NCBI GenBank assembly: GCA_026197075.1
Contig: JAPHQV010000009.1
Coordinates: 1 to 50,857 of the forward strand
DNA: 50,857 bases
Direction of reading: 5' to 3'
From: Gammaproteobacteria bacterium
GTDB taxonomy: Bacteria > Pseudomonadota > Gammaproteobacteria > DSM-19610
The notes below the pieces were generated by a model. The model saw only the letters and a list, made by a program, of their open reading frames with translations. It did not search any database and was not told where the DNA came from. Numbering within the stretch: position 1 is the first letter of the stretch; every line of letters starts with the position of its first letter. Below, one piece after another: positions 16,691 to 22,094 of the stretch. Position numbers and translations under genes: made by a program.

Positions 16691-18463
16691 TCATCGCCCA
16701 CGCAGGAACAGCCGGTCCAGTTCCTCCAGGCCGATTCGCACCCAGGTGGGGCGGCCGTGGTTGCACTGGCCGCTGCGCTCGGTGCGCTCCATATCGCGCA
16801 GCAGGGCGTTCATCTCGGCAAGTTCGAGCTGGCGGTTGGCGCGCACCGAGCCATGGCAGGCCATGGTGGAGAGCACCTCGTTCATGGCCTCCTGCAGACG
16901 GGTAGAGCTGCCCTGGCCCTCCAGGTCCGCCAGCAGGTCACGTACCAGGGCCTCCGCATCCCCGCGGATGAGCAGGCTGGGCACCTGCCGTACCACCAGG
17001 GCCTCCGGACCCTGGCGATCCAGCTCGACACCGAGGGAGGCCAGTTCCTCGTGATGCTGCTCGGCCAGGTCGGCCTCGCGGCGACTCACGGCCAGGCTCA
17101 CCGGCACCAGCAGGGGCTGGGAGCGGATGCCCTGCCCGGCCTGGGCGGCCTTCAGTCGTTCATAGGTAATACGCTCGTGGGCGGCATGCATGTCCACCAG
17201 CACCAGCCCATCCTGGTTCTGCGCCAGGATGTAGATACCGTGCAGTTGCGCCAACGCATAGCCCAAAGGGGGCGGCGCACCGGGATCCTGCTCCGGCAAT
17301 GGCGCCGTACCACCCTGTGGCATCCTGCTGCCGTGCAGTCGATCATAGATCGCCAGTTCCTCGCGCACCTGCAGGGGCATGGGCTGCTGCGCCGACATGG
17401 ACGCGAAGGCCGCCGGGGCTGCTGTCGGCTGTCCGCCCGGCGGGAAATCGCTCACTACACCCGGCCGCACTCCGGCCAGCACCTGGTGCAGGGAGCGAAA
17501 CAGGAAATCATGCACCAGGCGGCTGTCGCGAAAACGCACCTCGTGTTTGGTGGGATGGGCATTCACATCCACCCCGGCCGGATCCAGGGACAGGTAGAGC
17601 ACGAAAGCAGGATGCCGGCCGTGATACAACACATCCTGGTAGGCCTGGCGTACCGCGTGGGCGATCAGCTTGTCGCGCACCATGCGGCCATTGACGAAGA
17701 AATACTGCAGGTCCGGCTGGCTGCGTGAGAAGGTCGGCAGACCGATCCAGCCCTCGATACGCAGGCCCGCGGCCTCGTGTTCCACGTGCAGCGCCTGTTC
17801 CATGAAGGGTTTGCCGCACAGCTCCGCCACGCGCCGCTCCTGCTCCTCGAGGCGTGCCGCGGCGGGCAGGTGCAGCACCGCCTTCTGGTTGCGGCGCAAC
17901 ACCAGTTCCACGGAGAAGCGGCTGAGCGCGATGCGCCGCACCACGTCCTCGAAGTGCCGGTACTCGGTGGTTTCCGTGCGCAGGAACTTGCGGCGCGCGG
18001 GGGTATTGAAGAACAGGTCGCGCACCTCGACGGTGGTGCCCACGGCATGGGCCACGGGTGCCGGTTCCGGGCACTGGTCACTGCCATCACCCTGCACCGA
18101 CCAGCCGGTGTCATCGGCGGCGGTGCGTGACTGCAGGGTGAGCCGGGACACGGAGGCGATGCTCGGCAACGCCTCGCCCCGGAAACCCAGACTGGCGATG
18201 CATTCCAGCTCTTCCAGGCTGGACAGCTTGCTGGTGGCGTGGCGCGACAGGGCCAGGGCCAGTTCCGCGCGGGGAATACCCATGCCGTCGTCGCGCACCC
18301 GGATCAGGCGTCGGCCGCCCTCCTCCACCTCGATCTCGACGCGGCGCGCACCGGCGTCCAGGCTGTTTTCCAGCAGTTCCTTGACCACGGAGGACGGGCG
18401 CTCCACCACCTCGCCCGCCGCGATCTGGTTGACGAGCTGGGGTGGCAGGGGGCGGATGGGCAT
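16691..18463 (-). CDS. mutL: DNA mismatch repair protein MutL (endonuclease-type)
   Basis: 590 aa from the ATG at 18463 ([20 protein letters not shown]), where family similarity begins. Upstream in-frame sequence is unlike MutL. The GHKL ATPase motifs are complete: [12 protein letters not shown] (about 28-39), DDGMGI (58-63), RHATSKL (74-80), GFRGEAL (93-99). The C-terminal domain carries [12 protein letters not shown] (about 424-435), fitting the DQHA-x2-E-x4-E metal site with Q changed to M, plus [10 protein letters not shown] and CNHGRP. These are the marks of MutL with nicking activity, as opposed to the MutH-dependent E. coli form. A promoter and hairpin region lies upstream. Confidence 0.95.
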
Positions 18464-18796
18464 GGGGTCACGGGATGCTGGGAAAGGGCCACCTATCATA
18501 CCCGATGCCCGGCGAGCCGCGGAACCGGCTGTCCGGGGCAGCCGCTCCGATCCTCCCATGTTCTTGACAATGGGAGGATTGACGGCTTTTATTAATGGCA
18601 CACAGGAACTCCTGTTCACGACCGGCGACCCATAACAGCCGGCGACCTTTCCGGGCACCCGGTGCCCACACCGACATAACAACTGCTTCAGAATAAACAA
18701 AGGTGACCCCCATGCCATTATTCCCGCGACCATCCTTGCGCCCGGATCCGGGCCCACGTCTGTTGACCATCAACCTGGCTTGTACGGAGGCCCGCC
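18464..18796. promoter_or_regulatory. 333-bp divergent intergenic region with hairpin and candidate promoter
   Basis: The only stretch of more than 300 bases without a gene. It contains a 9-bp perfect inverted repeat TCCTCCCAT/ATGGGAGGA (18551-18559 with 18570-18578). The 10-nt loop holds TTGACA (18564-18569), a consensus -35 for the plus strand. A 17-nt spacer leads to TTTTAT, and TATTAA lies 3 nt further on. It could drive the membrane-protein gene at 18797. The AGGCCCGCC and CGGAGG segments before that ATG include a plausible ribosome-binding site (GGAGG, about 6 nt upstream). No tRNA or small-RNA signature was seen. Confidence 0.4.
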
Positions 18797-20596
18797 ATGG
18801 CATTTGAATACGGTTCACAGGTCATCGAGGTCCGCAATCCCTTCCGACTGGAGGGCTGGGTTTACTGTCTGCGCGGTCTGGTCACCAGCACGCTGGGCCT
18901 ATACCTGCTGCTGTCGGTGAAGGACCAGGTCAGCATGGGGCAGGACACCCTGGGCTTGCTGCAGGCCGGCGGTGGATTGCTGCTGGTGGCCATCGGCCTC
19001 TACGCCCTGGGCATGGGACTGTTCAAGGTATTCCGGTTCTTCATCGGCCGCGGCGTCCCCGCCAATCTCGCCAGTACTACATCGGCTTCCGCGAGCATCG
19101 CCCCGGGCAGTGAGCAGAACTTCCGCCAGACCGGAATCTACAACCCCACCTCCCTGAGCGAAATGCTGCTGGGCCGCAAGAACCTGACCTTCGTGGAACC
19201 CCAGGGCTGGCTGGCGCGCATGCTGCACAGCCTGCTGTTCCCGCTGATCTTCCTGCCCTACCCCATGCGCGGCATCAGCCTCAAGCTGTTCCAGGCCTGC
19301 TGGTACTCCCTCATCATGCTCGGGCTGCTGGGGCTTGCCTTGTTTTCCGGGACCACGGGCCTGACCGAGGTCACCGGCACCCCGGTGGCCCAATACCTGG
19401 GCGCCATCACCCTGCTCGCCATGCTGGTCACCTGGGCCTTCATCTTCCAGCCGCGCAAGCGCGACCTGCACACACCGCAACTGCACAGCAGCACCAAGTC
19501 CTTCAGTGACAAACCCGTGGCCAATTTCGTCAAGATGGCGCTCTGGGTCGCGGTGCCGATCGCGGTCACCGCCCTGCTGCTGGAGATCCATCAACAAGGT
19601 GGTCTGCAACGCCTGCCGGTTTCCCCCTGGCCATGGCTCGCCGCCCTGGTGGTATCCCTGCTCCTGGCCCTGGCCTATGCCTTGTTGCTGGCCCACCGTC
19701 GCGCGCCCAGGGGCGCAGTGCCCACGGACGTGGCCGAATTCCGTGCCCATTGGCAGGAAAGCGTGCACCCCATGGACATCTTCCGCGCCATGGAAATGAC
19801 CCTGGCCAATCATCGCTACATGGAGATCCCCAACCGGGTCTACATCCTGCAGGAACCGGACCTGCAGCGTCAGGGCAGCGAGAACAAGGGTGAATTCAAG
19901 GGCGAAACGCTACAGGAGATCCAGCCGGAACCGCTGCCTGACCAGCATCGCGATCCCCTGGTGACACCGGGCATCCTGCTCGGCCAGTTGCTGTTGATGG
20001 GTTCCTCCCTGTGGTTGTTCCTGGCCCTGCTGGGCCTGGAACCCACGCCGGCGAACATCACCGCCTCCGTGCTCGGACCCCTGCTGTTGTGGCTGTTCGG
20101 ACGCGCCATCGCCTTCACCGCCAACATCTACCTGGCGGAGGTTCACTTCCAATCCCAGCTCATCGCTTTCCGCGCCAGCGGCACCTATACGGAATCGCGG
20201 CTCGCCACCGGCATGAGCATCTACGACTCCACCCGTTCCGAGAACACCATCGTCCGTTCCAGCATCACCCCATGGCTGATCGTGAGCCGTATCCACTCCA
20301 GCATCATCGCCGTCAGTGGCGCGATGAACCTGGAACAGCCGCGCTACGTGCTCACCATGGATCGCAACGAGCCGCTATGCGACGAACTGGTGAGGGACAT
20401 CCAGTGCTACCTGAAGGAGCGCCAGGTGATGGCCTCGGTACAGTCGGAATCGGACCTGCACGCCGCCTCCACCATCCACCAGATGAACGAGCGGACCCGC
20501 GCCAAGATGCCGGGGCAGGAGGCACATCCGCCCCTGTCGGAGGAAGTGCGCCGGGAACGGCTGGGACCCGGCACGGGAGAAGAACGGGAGGAATGA
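18797..20596 (+). CDS. Unrecognised polytopic membrane protein
   Basis: 599 aa; I do not recognise the family. Hydrophobic segments occur near residues 25-41, 54-80, 143-156, 166-186, 198-217, 247-264, 279-299, 393-413 and 422-445. They separate a polar loop (about 85-135), a cytoplasmic-looking loop (about 300-390, with HPMDIFRAMEMTLANHRYMEIPNR) and a C-terminal soluble domain of about 150 residues. That domain contains the hydrophobic stretch TPWLIVSRIHSSIIAVSG and ends in a charged tail. It is the only plus-strand gene in the mutL-amidase interval and has no cotranscribed partner, since the next gene converges. Codon use and GC look like the neighbours, so recent transfer is not evident. 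Confidence 0.8.
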   Translation: MAFEYGSQVIEVRNPFRLEGWVYCLRGLVTSTLGLYLLLSVKDQVSMGQDTLGLLQAGGGLLLVAIGLYALGMGLFKVFRFFIGRGVPANLASTTSASASIAPGSEQNFRQTGIYNPTSLSEMLLGRKNLTFVEPQGWLARMLHSLLFPLIFLPYPMRGISLKLFQACWYSLIMLGLLGLALFSGTTGLTEVTGTPVAQYLGAITLLAMLVTWAFIFQPRKRDLHTPQLHSSTKSFSDKPVANFVKMALWVAVPIAVTALLLEIHQQGGLQRLPVSPWPWLAALVVSLLLALAYALLLAHRRAPRGAVPTDVAEFRAHWQESVHPMDIFRAMEMTLANHRYMEIPNRVYILQEPDLQRQGSENKGEFKGETLQEIQPEPLPDQHRDPLVTPGILLGQLLLMGSSLWLFLALLGLEPTPANITASVLGPLLLWLFGRAIAFTANIYLAEVHFQSQLIAFRASGTYTESRLATGMSIYDSTRSENTIVRSSITPWLIVSRIHSSIIAVSGAMNLEQPRYVLTMDRNEPLCDELVRDIQCYLKERQVMASVQSESDLHAASTIHQMNERTRAKMPGQEAHPPLSEEVRRERLGPGTGEEREE

Positions 20597-20691
20597 GGCC
20601 GAACCCGGGGTTTGTCCTGCTGCCCGCGGGAATCACGCACGGCCAGGGTCTGATCATGCCCTCATGGCAAGGCGCATAGCGCCGCGTGACC

Positions 20692-22011
20692 TTAGCCGCC
20701 TTCGGGGATGGTCAGGGTGCGTCCCACCAGCAGGCGGTCGCTGTTCAGGCCATTGGTGGCGCGCAGACTGTCCACGTTGACGCCATAACGACGCGCGATA
20801 TGGCTGAGTGTGTCACCGGAACGCACAATGTGGCGGCGGTCACTACGCATGGCCATGAGGGTACCCGGCGGTGGGTGTTGAGTGAAATAGCTGCGAATGC
20901 CCGCCACCATGGCCCGCGCCAGCTGATCCTGGTGCCGGGCATCGCGCAGCTTGCGCTCCTCCTGGGGATTGGAGATGAAGGCCGTTTCCACCAGGATGGA
21001 GGGGATGTCCGGTGAGCGCAGCACGGCAAAAGCCGCGTGCTGCACCTCGGGCTTGTGCACCTTGCCCAGCTGCCTGAAATGTTTCAGCACCTCGGCGCCC
21101 ACCTCCATGCTGGCCTCGATGGTGGCCGTCTGGGACAGGTCCAACAGCACTTCCGTCAGCAAATCGTCCTTGTCGTCCAGCCGCACGCCGCCCACCAGGT
21201 CGGAGGCGTTTTCCCGTGCCGCGATCCAGCGCGCCATCTCCGAGGAGGCGCCACGGCGCGACAGCACATAGACCGAGGAACCATGCACCTTGGCATTGTG
21301 GAAGGCATCGGCGTGGATGGAGATGAACAGGTCCGCCTTGTGCTGGCGGGCCAGGTCGATACGCTTGCGCAAGCTGATGAAGTAATCACCATCGCGGATC
21401 AGCACGGCACGCATGCCGGGCTCGGCATTCACCTGATTGGCGAGTCGGCGTGCGATGGCCAGCACCACGTCTTTTTCCCGTGTCTTGCCCTTGCCGATGG
21501 CACCCGGATCCTCACCGCCATGGCCGGCGTCGATGGCGATCACCAGGTCGCGCAGACCCTCCGGCGCGGTCTTGACCGTACGCGGTGTAGCCGGCGTCGG
21601 CGCATTCCGGACGCCCGGTGTCGAGCCGGCGTGTGTCAGGTCGATGACCAGGCGATGCCCGTATTCATGATTGGGTTGCAGCACGAAGCTCTTCGGCCGC
21701 ACCGCCTGGCTGAGGTCCAGCACCACCCGCAGACCCTGTTCCCGCTTGCCGGTCCGCAGGCCGCGCACCAGGCCGGTCTCGATGGCGGCTTCCTGGAAAC
21801 CCGCGCCCAGGCGGGCATTGTCCAGGTCGATGACCAGCCGTTCAGGATCATGAAGAGTGAAGAGTTTGTGTGCGACACCGGCGCTGATATCGAACACCAC
21901 CCGGGTGCTGTCCGGGGCGGCCCACAGGCGCACGCCCTGGATTTCCACATTGGCAGTGACGCTGCCGGCGGCAGCCAACCACAGGGACAGAATGGCGATC
22001 AGGAAACGCAT
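20692..22011 (-). CDS. amiC: N-acetylmuramoyl-L-alanine amidase (AmiB/AmiC type) with AMIN and LysM domains
   Basis: Zinc amidase that cleaves the stem peptide from muramic acid during septum splitting. 439 aa from the ATG at 22011, which has a GGGGAGG ribosome-binding site and starts a signal peptide (to about residue 20). The AMIN domain (about 22-128) is followed by Amidase_3 with DAGHGG (H164), E179, SIHAD (H233) and VETAF (catalytic E342). A C-terminal LysM repeat (about 394-436, VRSGDTLSHIARRYGV) follows. It is the homologue normally found between tsaE and mutL, but both neighbours are displaced here. Confidence 0.92.
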   Translation of the reverse strand: MRFLIAILSLWLAAAGSVTANVEIQGVRLWAAPDSTRVVFDISAGVAHKLFTLHDPERLVIDLDNARLGAGFQEAAIETGLVRGLRTGKREQGLRVVLDLSQAVRPKSFVLQPNHEYGHRLVIDLTHAGSTPGVRNAPTPATPRTVKTAPEGLRDLVIAIDAGHGGEDPGAIGKGKTREKDVVLAIARRLANQVNAEPGMRAVLIRDGDYFISLRKRIDLARQHKADLFISIHADAFHNAKVHGSSVYVLSRRGASSEMARWIAARENASDLVGGVRLDDKDDLLTEVLLDLSQTATIEASMEVGAEVLKHFRQLGKVHKPEVQHAAFAVLRSPDIPSILVETAFISNPQEERKLRDARHQDQLARAMVAGIRSYFTQHPPPGTLMAMRSDRRHIVRSGDTLSHIARRYGVNVDSLRATNGLNSDRLLVGRTLTIPEGG

Positions 22012-22094
22012 GCCGTGCCTCCCCTTCAGGCGTCGGAAATCGGGCAAGTAAGGCTTATTGAGGCACAACCGAGGAGGAAATGCAAGAAATTGTC

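Follow-up and report, generated by a model that had tools for sequence, protein, structure and literature searches.

An inserted gene between mutL and an amidase gene encodes a member of an unnamed membrane protein family, possibly with a hairpin-split START-like domain

The window studied here (the whole 50,857-nt stretch of DNA, from a contig of a Gammaproteobacteria bacterium) contains a plus-strand open reading frame of 599 codons (18797–20596) that begins with ATG, is preceded at 6 nt by a Shine-Dalgarno-like GGAGG (18786–18790, plus strand), and encodes a 599-aa membrane protein, P0001. Its left neighbor is mutL on the minus strand (16691–18475), the query for the mutL/MutL searches described below, whose open reading frame spans 16691–18757 with a likely start at about 18475. 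Its right neighbor, also on the minus strand (20692–22068), is an open reading frame conservedly adjoining mutL that we take to be an N-acetylmuramoyl-L-alanine amidase gene with a LysM-like C-terminal part. The P0001 gene is therefore divergent from mutL and convergent with the amidase gene, and in both its extent and its orientation the original prediction, made from the sequence, holds. The leader of the gene carries a perfect 10-bp inverted repeat with a 10-bp loop (18550–18579), at which a scan found no terminator match, and the leader region gave no match to the sigma-70 promoter consensus. A 31-codon open reading frame (18712–18807), with a Shine-Dalgarno-like AAAGGTGA upstream, overlaps the start of the P0001 gene and might be a leader peptide or a chance occurrence. 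The P0001 frame itself is a genuine gene and not a chance reading frame, because relatives occur at 58 loci in other species, mostly near full length and with many invariant residues.

The DNA that carries this gene (18530–20620) is missing from G001, a genome of the same genus whose MutL and amidase are 95 and 98% identical, respectively, to those of the window genome. Local alignment to this empty site (L128) shows that the left homology stops at 18529 and the right homology restarts at about 20611–20621, so that the right edge of the insert is not sharp (20611–20620); G001 is only 80% complete, with the empty site itself covered. The gap between the amidase gene and mutL is 144 nt in G001, and the extra DNA in the window (~2.09 kb) comprises the P0001 gene with 267 bp of upstream and some 15–24 bp of downstream sequence, i.e., the gene and its 5' leader only. 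Searches for mutL in 24 genomes, including the window's own, found it in 22, and these agree with the earlier claim that an amidase gene directly adjoins mutL in related gammaproteobacteria. Specifically, the pair is intact in all 15 other genomes of the family from which mutL was fetched (spacing 47–147 nt; locus L116 lies at the edge of a contig and begins within the amidase gene) and in four of the five genomes of the class tested outside the family, with an overall spacing of 5–147 nt; the fifth, G022, gave no amidase match, and G027 was left out of the pair test. Of the 20 genomes of the order, that of the window was the only one with the inserted gene, and within its family the insert is confined to the window genome, i.e., the gene order is not universal in the lineage. 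The simplest reading of these comparisons is that the P0001 gene would have been gained recently in the window lineage as a one-gene insert splitting a conserved pair, because the same-genus genome retains an empty site and 15 of 15 other family genomes keep the pair. No transposase, integrase or direct repeat was seen at the insert ends, and foreign composition was not found (third-position GC of 0.85 for the P0001 gene vs. 0.80–0.91 for four neighbors). Dating the transfer from divergence was ruled out, as P0001 is 61–66% identical to its three nearest relatives and MutL is 64–65% identical between the genomes concerned.

The original prediction could attach no family to the protein and proposed it as a candidate undescribed protein. 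The first of these points stands: Pfam and PDB sequences returned no match for P0001, PHROGs returned nothing, the sole NCBIfam match fell far below the cut-off, and among the best 25 of 36 Pfam families matched by 59 members no convincing domain appeared (best E 0.0013, in one member only). We also found no paper title on such a protein, weak evidence given that a family without a name is hard to search for. As for the second, the absence of a curated family holds and the isolation does not, since the orphan status suggested by single-sequence searches was overturned by an alignment-based search. In a collection of 84,980 species genomes, a pattern-and-alignment search located the 58 relative loci, a lower bound because the search starts from short patterns, in Rheinheimera, Alteromonas, Paraglaciecola, Aliikangiella, and other genera. 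The resulting 59-row alignment, in which identity to P0001 ranges from 33 to 66% and most rows are near whole length, shows homology from end to end, with the shared motifs GRxVPxxL, GRKNxTFxEP, PNRxY, ExQP and GTYxES..TG....DSTxSEN..xS.TPW.

Sampling by taxon gave a similarly scattered picture. A 369-genome sample of the class held two true relatives besides the window's own (34–35% identical), which also fed into the pattern-and-alignment search, a phylum sample gave matches in 13 of 398 genomes (12 counted credible), and the families of G364 and G216 gave matches in 25 of 98 (24 counted credible) and one of three genomes, respectively. Relatives are thus spread patchily over Gammaproteobacteria, with remote forms elsewhere; phage records and viral contigs carried none. 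Matches in G044 (E 0.005) and G122 (E 0.0085) were judged to be chance, the proteins there looking unrelated on reading, and neither the weak partial matches in G403, G644, G823, and G487 nor a weak match in G868 to the zinc ribbon part only were counted as members. The closest relatives (L011, L023, and L012; 61–66% identical) include the two with which P0001 clusters at full support in the tree (L011 and L023). Oceanospirillaceae members are nested there within Alteromonadaceae groups, a placement that would be in line with horizontal transfer, although the tree is arbitrarily rooted and its long branches make error a concern. In G633 the family gene (L138:7031–8922) is divided into two open reading frames in different frames, with the break between the third strand and TM7, which could reflect a true split, a frameshift or a sequencing error; the gene after it is of the CsgG family. 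Taken together, the alignments place P0001 in a broad, unnamed, and widely scattered family of membrane proteins.

Remote forms extend this family further. Two members, of 595 aa in G687 and of 546 aa in G634, match the family profile along their length, and the profile is matched end to end (133.8 bits) by a protein of Acinetobacter plasmids (WP_038350045.1) that is about 24% identical to the core member L013 and was found in 62 of 72,556 plasmid records, all of them from Acinetobacter. This plasmid protein differs from the core family in its extra C-terminal zinc ribbon, and its annotation (“zinc ribbon domain-containing protein”) gives no function; in the G687 form the zinc ribbon end is weak (23.2 bits vs. 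a cut-off of 25). The plasmids are large (e.g., L166:9001–10806 in NZ_CP010351.1, with 61 further such records), and in the two records viewed the member lies near H-NS, DUF2726, and topoisomerase genes. The G687 member lies among zinc-ribbon genes (L136:4469–11421, three upstream neighbors) and is followed by a lipoprotein-like gene.

Gene neighborhoods offered little guide to function. No constant neighbor emerged from clustering the neighbors of 60 loci, the largest cluster being common to 14 of them, and the larger clusters reflected either gene order shared at genus level or common gene families (LysR-like and response-regulator genes, at distances that vary). The family gene is preceded by a hydrolase gene at 13 Rheinheimera-type loci and by a dehydratase-like gene at several Kangiella-type loci; these neighbor names (LysR-like, hydrolase, dehydratase-like) were assigned by reading the sequences, and the neighboring frames were picked by a greedy longest-ORF rule that may err in high-GC DNA. 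Operon logic failed, the adjacent genes changing from lineage to lineage, and P0001 probably acts alone or with housekeeping partners. The products of two genes that adjoin family genes (L137:7332–8108 and L007:11012–11887) lack a Pfam match, have hydrophobic segments close to the C-terminus, and are not detectably related to each other; P0006 and the L007 neighbor, alike by eye, likewise showed no detectable relation.

P0001 was expected to be a membrane protein with about nine hydrophobic segments; the membrane character stands, and family-averaged hydropathy and an AlphaFold2 model both predict eight helices rather than nine. TM1 and TM2 (residues 17–46 and 50–79; 18845–19033, plus strand as for all features that follow) lead into a conserved loop (residues 80–154; 19034–19258), after which come TM3–TM6 (residues 155–186, 196–216, 240–266, and 278–302; 19259–19702). 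The predicted large polar loop at about 300–390 was found at about 303–388, and the predicted soluble C domain of roughly 150 residues at 447–599, with TM7 and TM8 (residues 389–412 and 418–446; 19961–20134) forming a hairpin between them. By the positive-inside rule both ends of the protein and the loops at 80–154, 217–239, and 303–388 would be cytosolic. Conservation is high in the first 16 residues (0.80), the 80–154 loop (0.72, reaching 98% or more at 21 of its 75 positions), residues 338–346 (mean 0.97), residues 472–504 (0.81) and the turn at 505–516 (0.75); it is low in the helices (0.47–0.62) and in the loop 217–239 (only 0.50), and neither TM7 nor TM8 has a position at 98% conservation. 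Many of the invariant residues are polar.

The two soluble regions singled out for structure prediction in the original note (300–390 and 450–570) are modeled as one joint domain. In both the full AlphaFold2 model (mean pLDDT 80.6, pTM 0.77) and a model of residues 303–570 alone (mean pLDDT 82.0, pTM 0.66), the same two-piece domain appears, its first piece (residues 309–379; 19721–19933) consisting of a strand, a helix, and two strands, and its second (residues 448–546; 20138–20434) of three strands and a long helix, parted by the TM7–TM8 hairpin. The order is thus b-a-b-b-[TM7–TM8]-b-b-b-a, i.e., six strands with one helix between the first two. Foldseek gave no PDB match at E ≤ 0.001 for either the full or the 303–570 model. 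Long-hairpin matches to ssRNA phage maturation proteins (E down to 9e-5, TM-scores about 0.1) and to TraT (best E 1.3e-3, TM-score about 0.2) were rejected.

In a realignment of residues 303–570 with VIA-align 2, Flpp3 (Z 9.7, rmsd 2.9, 99 aligned) and Ara h 8 (Z 8.3, rmsd 4.0, 113 aligned) score highest, the other rows having Z 6.7–7.8, and 45 of the 50 rows span both pieces while skipping the hairpin, the remaining five matching the hairpin only. At least 36 of these 45 are helix-grip proteins by title, with PR-10, START, PYL, aromatase/cyclase, CoxG, and phospholipid trafficking complex among the titles, all of which we presume to belong to the helix-grip superfamily. A Z of 7–8 is, according to the tool itself, typical for models that lack a clear match, and since only the top 1000 Foldseek chains were realigned the absence of other folds is uninformative; nonetheless, although a single Z of about 7 is background, a list filled by one superfold would not be expected of noise. 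The amphipathic moment exceeded shuffles at 0.05 in just 1 of 10 segments, leaving a hydrophobic cavity without sequence support, and no Pfam family of the helix-grip superfamily appeared by name for P0001 or among the best 25 of 36 families for the 59 members.

The helix-grip fold is a curved antiparallel sheet around a long C-terminal helix, in the order strand-helix-helix-strands-helix, and Bet v 1 itself has seven strands and two helices. The predicted P0001 domain resembles START, Bet v 1, and SRPBCC proteins in its strand-helix-strands-helix order closed by a long C-terminal helix, and the VIA-align rows cover nearly whole Bet v 1-type chains at Z up to 9.7. It differs from them in lacking recognition by sequence, in lying within an eight-helix protein, in being interrupted by a hairpin, and in being modeled one strand and one helix short. 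The Lam/Ltc, GRAMD1, and STARD3 proteins are described as likewise having a membrane-attached helix-grip domain, and the StART-like domain of Lam2 (6cay) is in the P0001 fold list (Z 6.7); yet these StARkin proteins are eukaryotic and act at membrane contact sites, they show no sequence match to P0001, and their helix-grip domain is uninterrupted. A further comparison is AhfA (Cgp_0475), described as a bacterial helix-grip protein required for mycolic acid synthesis (PMC9671496). Like P0001, AhfA is bacterial, its helix-grip fold is predicted and a lipid role has been proposed for it, but it is a predicted cytoplasmic, actinobacterial protein with a DUF2505 domain (PMC9671496), and the likeness is one of predicted fold and proposed role, not of sequence.

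The comparisons above establish the gene, its family, and its insertion, and show that known domains and constant partners are lacking; topology and fold are predicted. From these predictions we infer a ligand, a mouth, and a function for P0001, and we tentatively favor, at somewhat less than even confidence, a self-contained inner-membrane protein with a START-like split domain, perhaps holding a lipid-like or hydrophobic ligand and encoded by a recent, horizontally moved one-gene insert. If the fold is right, TM6 would run into the first strand and TM7–TM8 would occupy a strand-strand turn. With the Bet v 1 strand order, the TM6 entry and the TM7–TM8 turn share one end of the sheet, so that the domain would be oriented upright on the membrane, its far end formed by the loops at 338–347, 360–365, and 471–483, which contain many of the invariant residues; the turn at 505–516, also conserved, would be at the membrane end. 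The conserved loops at 338–347, 360–369, and 471–483 may form a mouth or docking site, through which a lipid-like or other hydrophobic ligand could be taken from the inner leaflet into the START-like domain. That this amounts to a new architecture, i.e., a START-like lipid-binding cup in a polytopic bacterial membrane protein, split by a hairpin and thereby kept at the inner leaflet, partnerless, and spread between bacteria as a single gene, we regard as doubtful.

The strongest rival to a lipid role is one in protein docking, with the cytosolic domain a docking or sensing platform and P0001 a membrane-anchored scaffold or regulator whose polar loops bind protein or nucleotide rather than lipid. 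We consider this possible though not probable: the most conserved stretches are indeed polar and in loops, the remote members carry a terminal zinc ribbon (a common protein-binding module), and three neighboring genes in G687 also encode zinc ribbons, yet P0001 itself has no zinc ribbon and the core family has no constant neighbor to serve as partner. A transporter or channel of a family not yet described, with the soluble domain regulatory, would suit the eight membrane helices. We rate it as improbable; no transporter family was matched convincingly (Pfam, NCBIfam), no match to a characterized transporter or secretion component was found, and a transport path through the helices is disfavored because conservation sits in most of the soluble parts and the helices are the least conserved. 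Cargo of a mobile element with a defense or stress role appears equally unlikely, in that the one-gene insertion, the patchy distribution, and the occurrence of remote forms in 62 plasmid records of Acinetobacter would fit it, but PADLOC gave no match for P0001 and a single, not credible best match among nine members (E 0.014), phage records and viral contigs hold no relatives, and the insert ends lack a visible integrase, transposase, or direct repeat.

The START-like reading remains the one we prefer. Whatever its standing, these data describe a conserved, full-length membrane protein family of many culturable genera, for which the libraries searched offer neither a named domain nor a function, and the vacant site of a sister species makes this a clean case of a single gene inserted into the conserved mutL gene row. 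Should the split START-like domain prove true, P0001 and its relatives would represent something of a kind unmatched in the searches made: a bacterial, membrane-embedded lipid-handling device.
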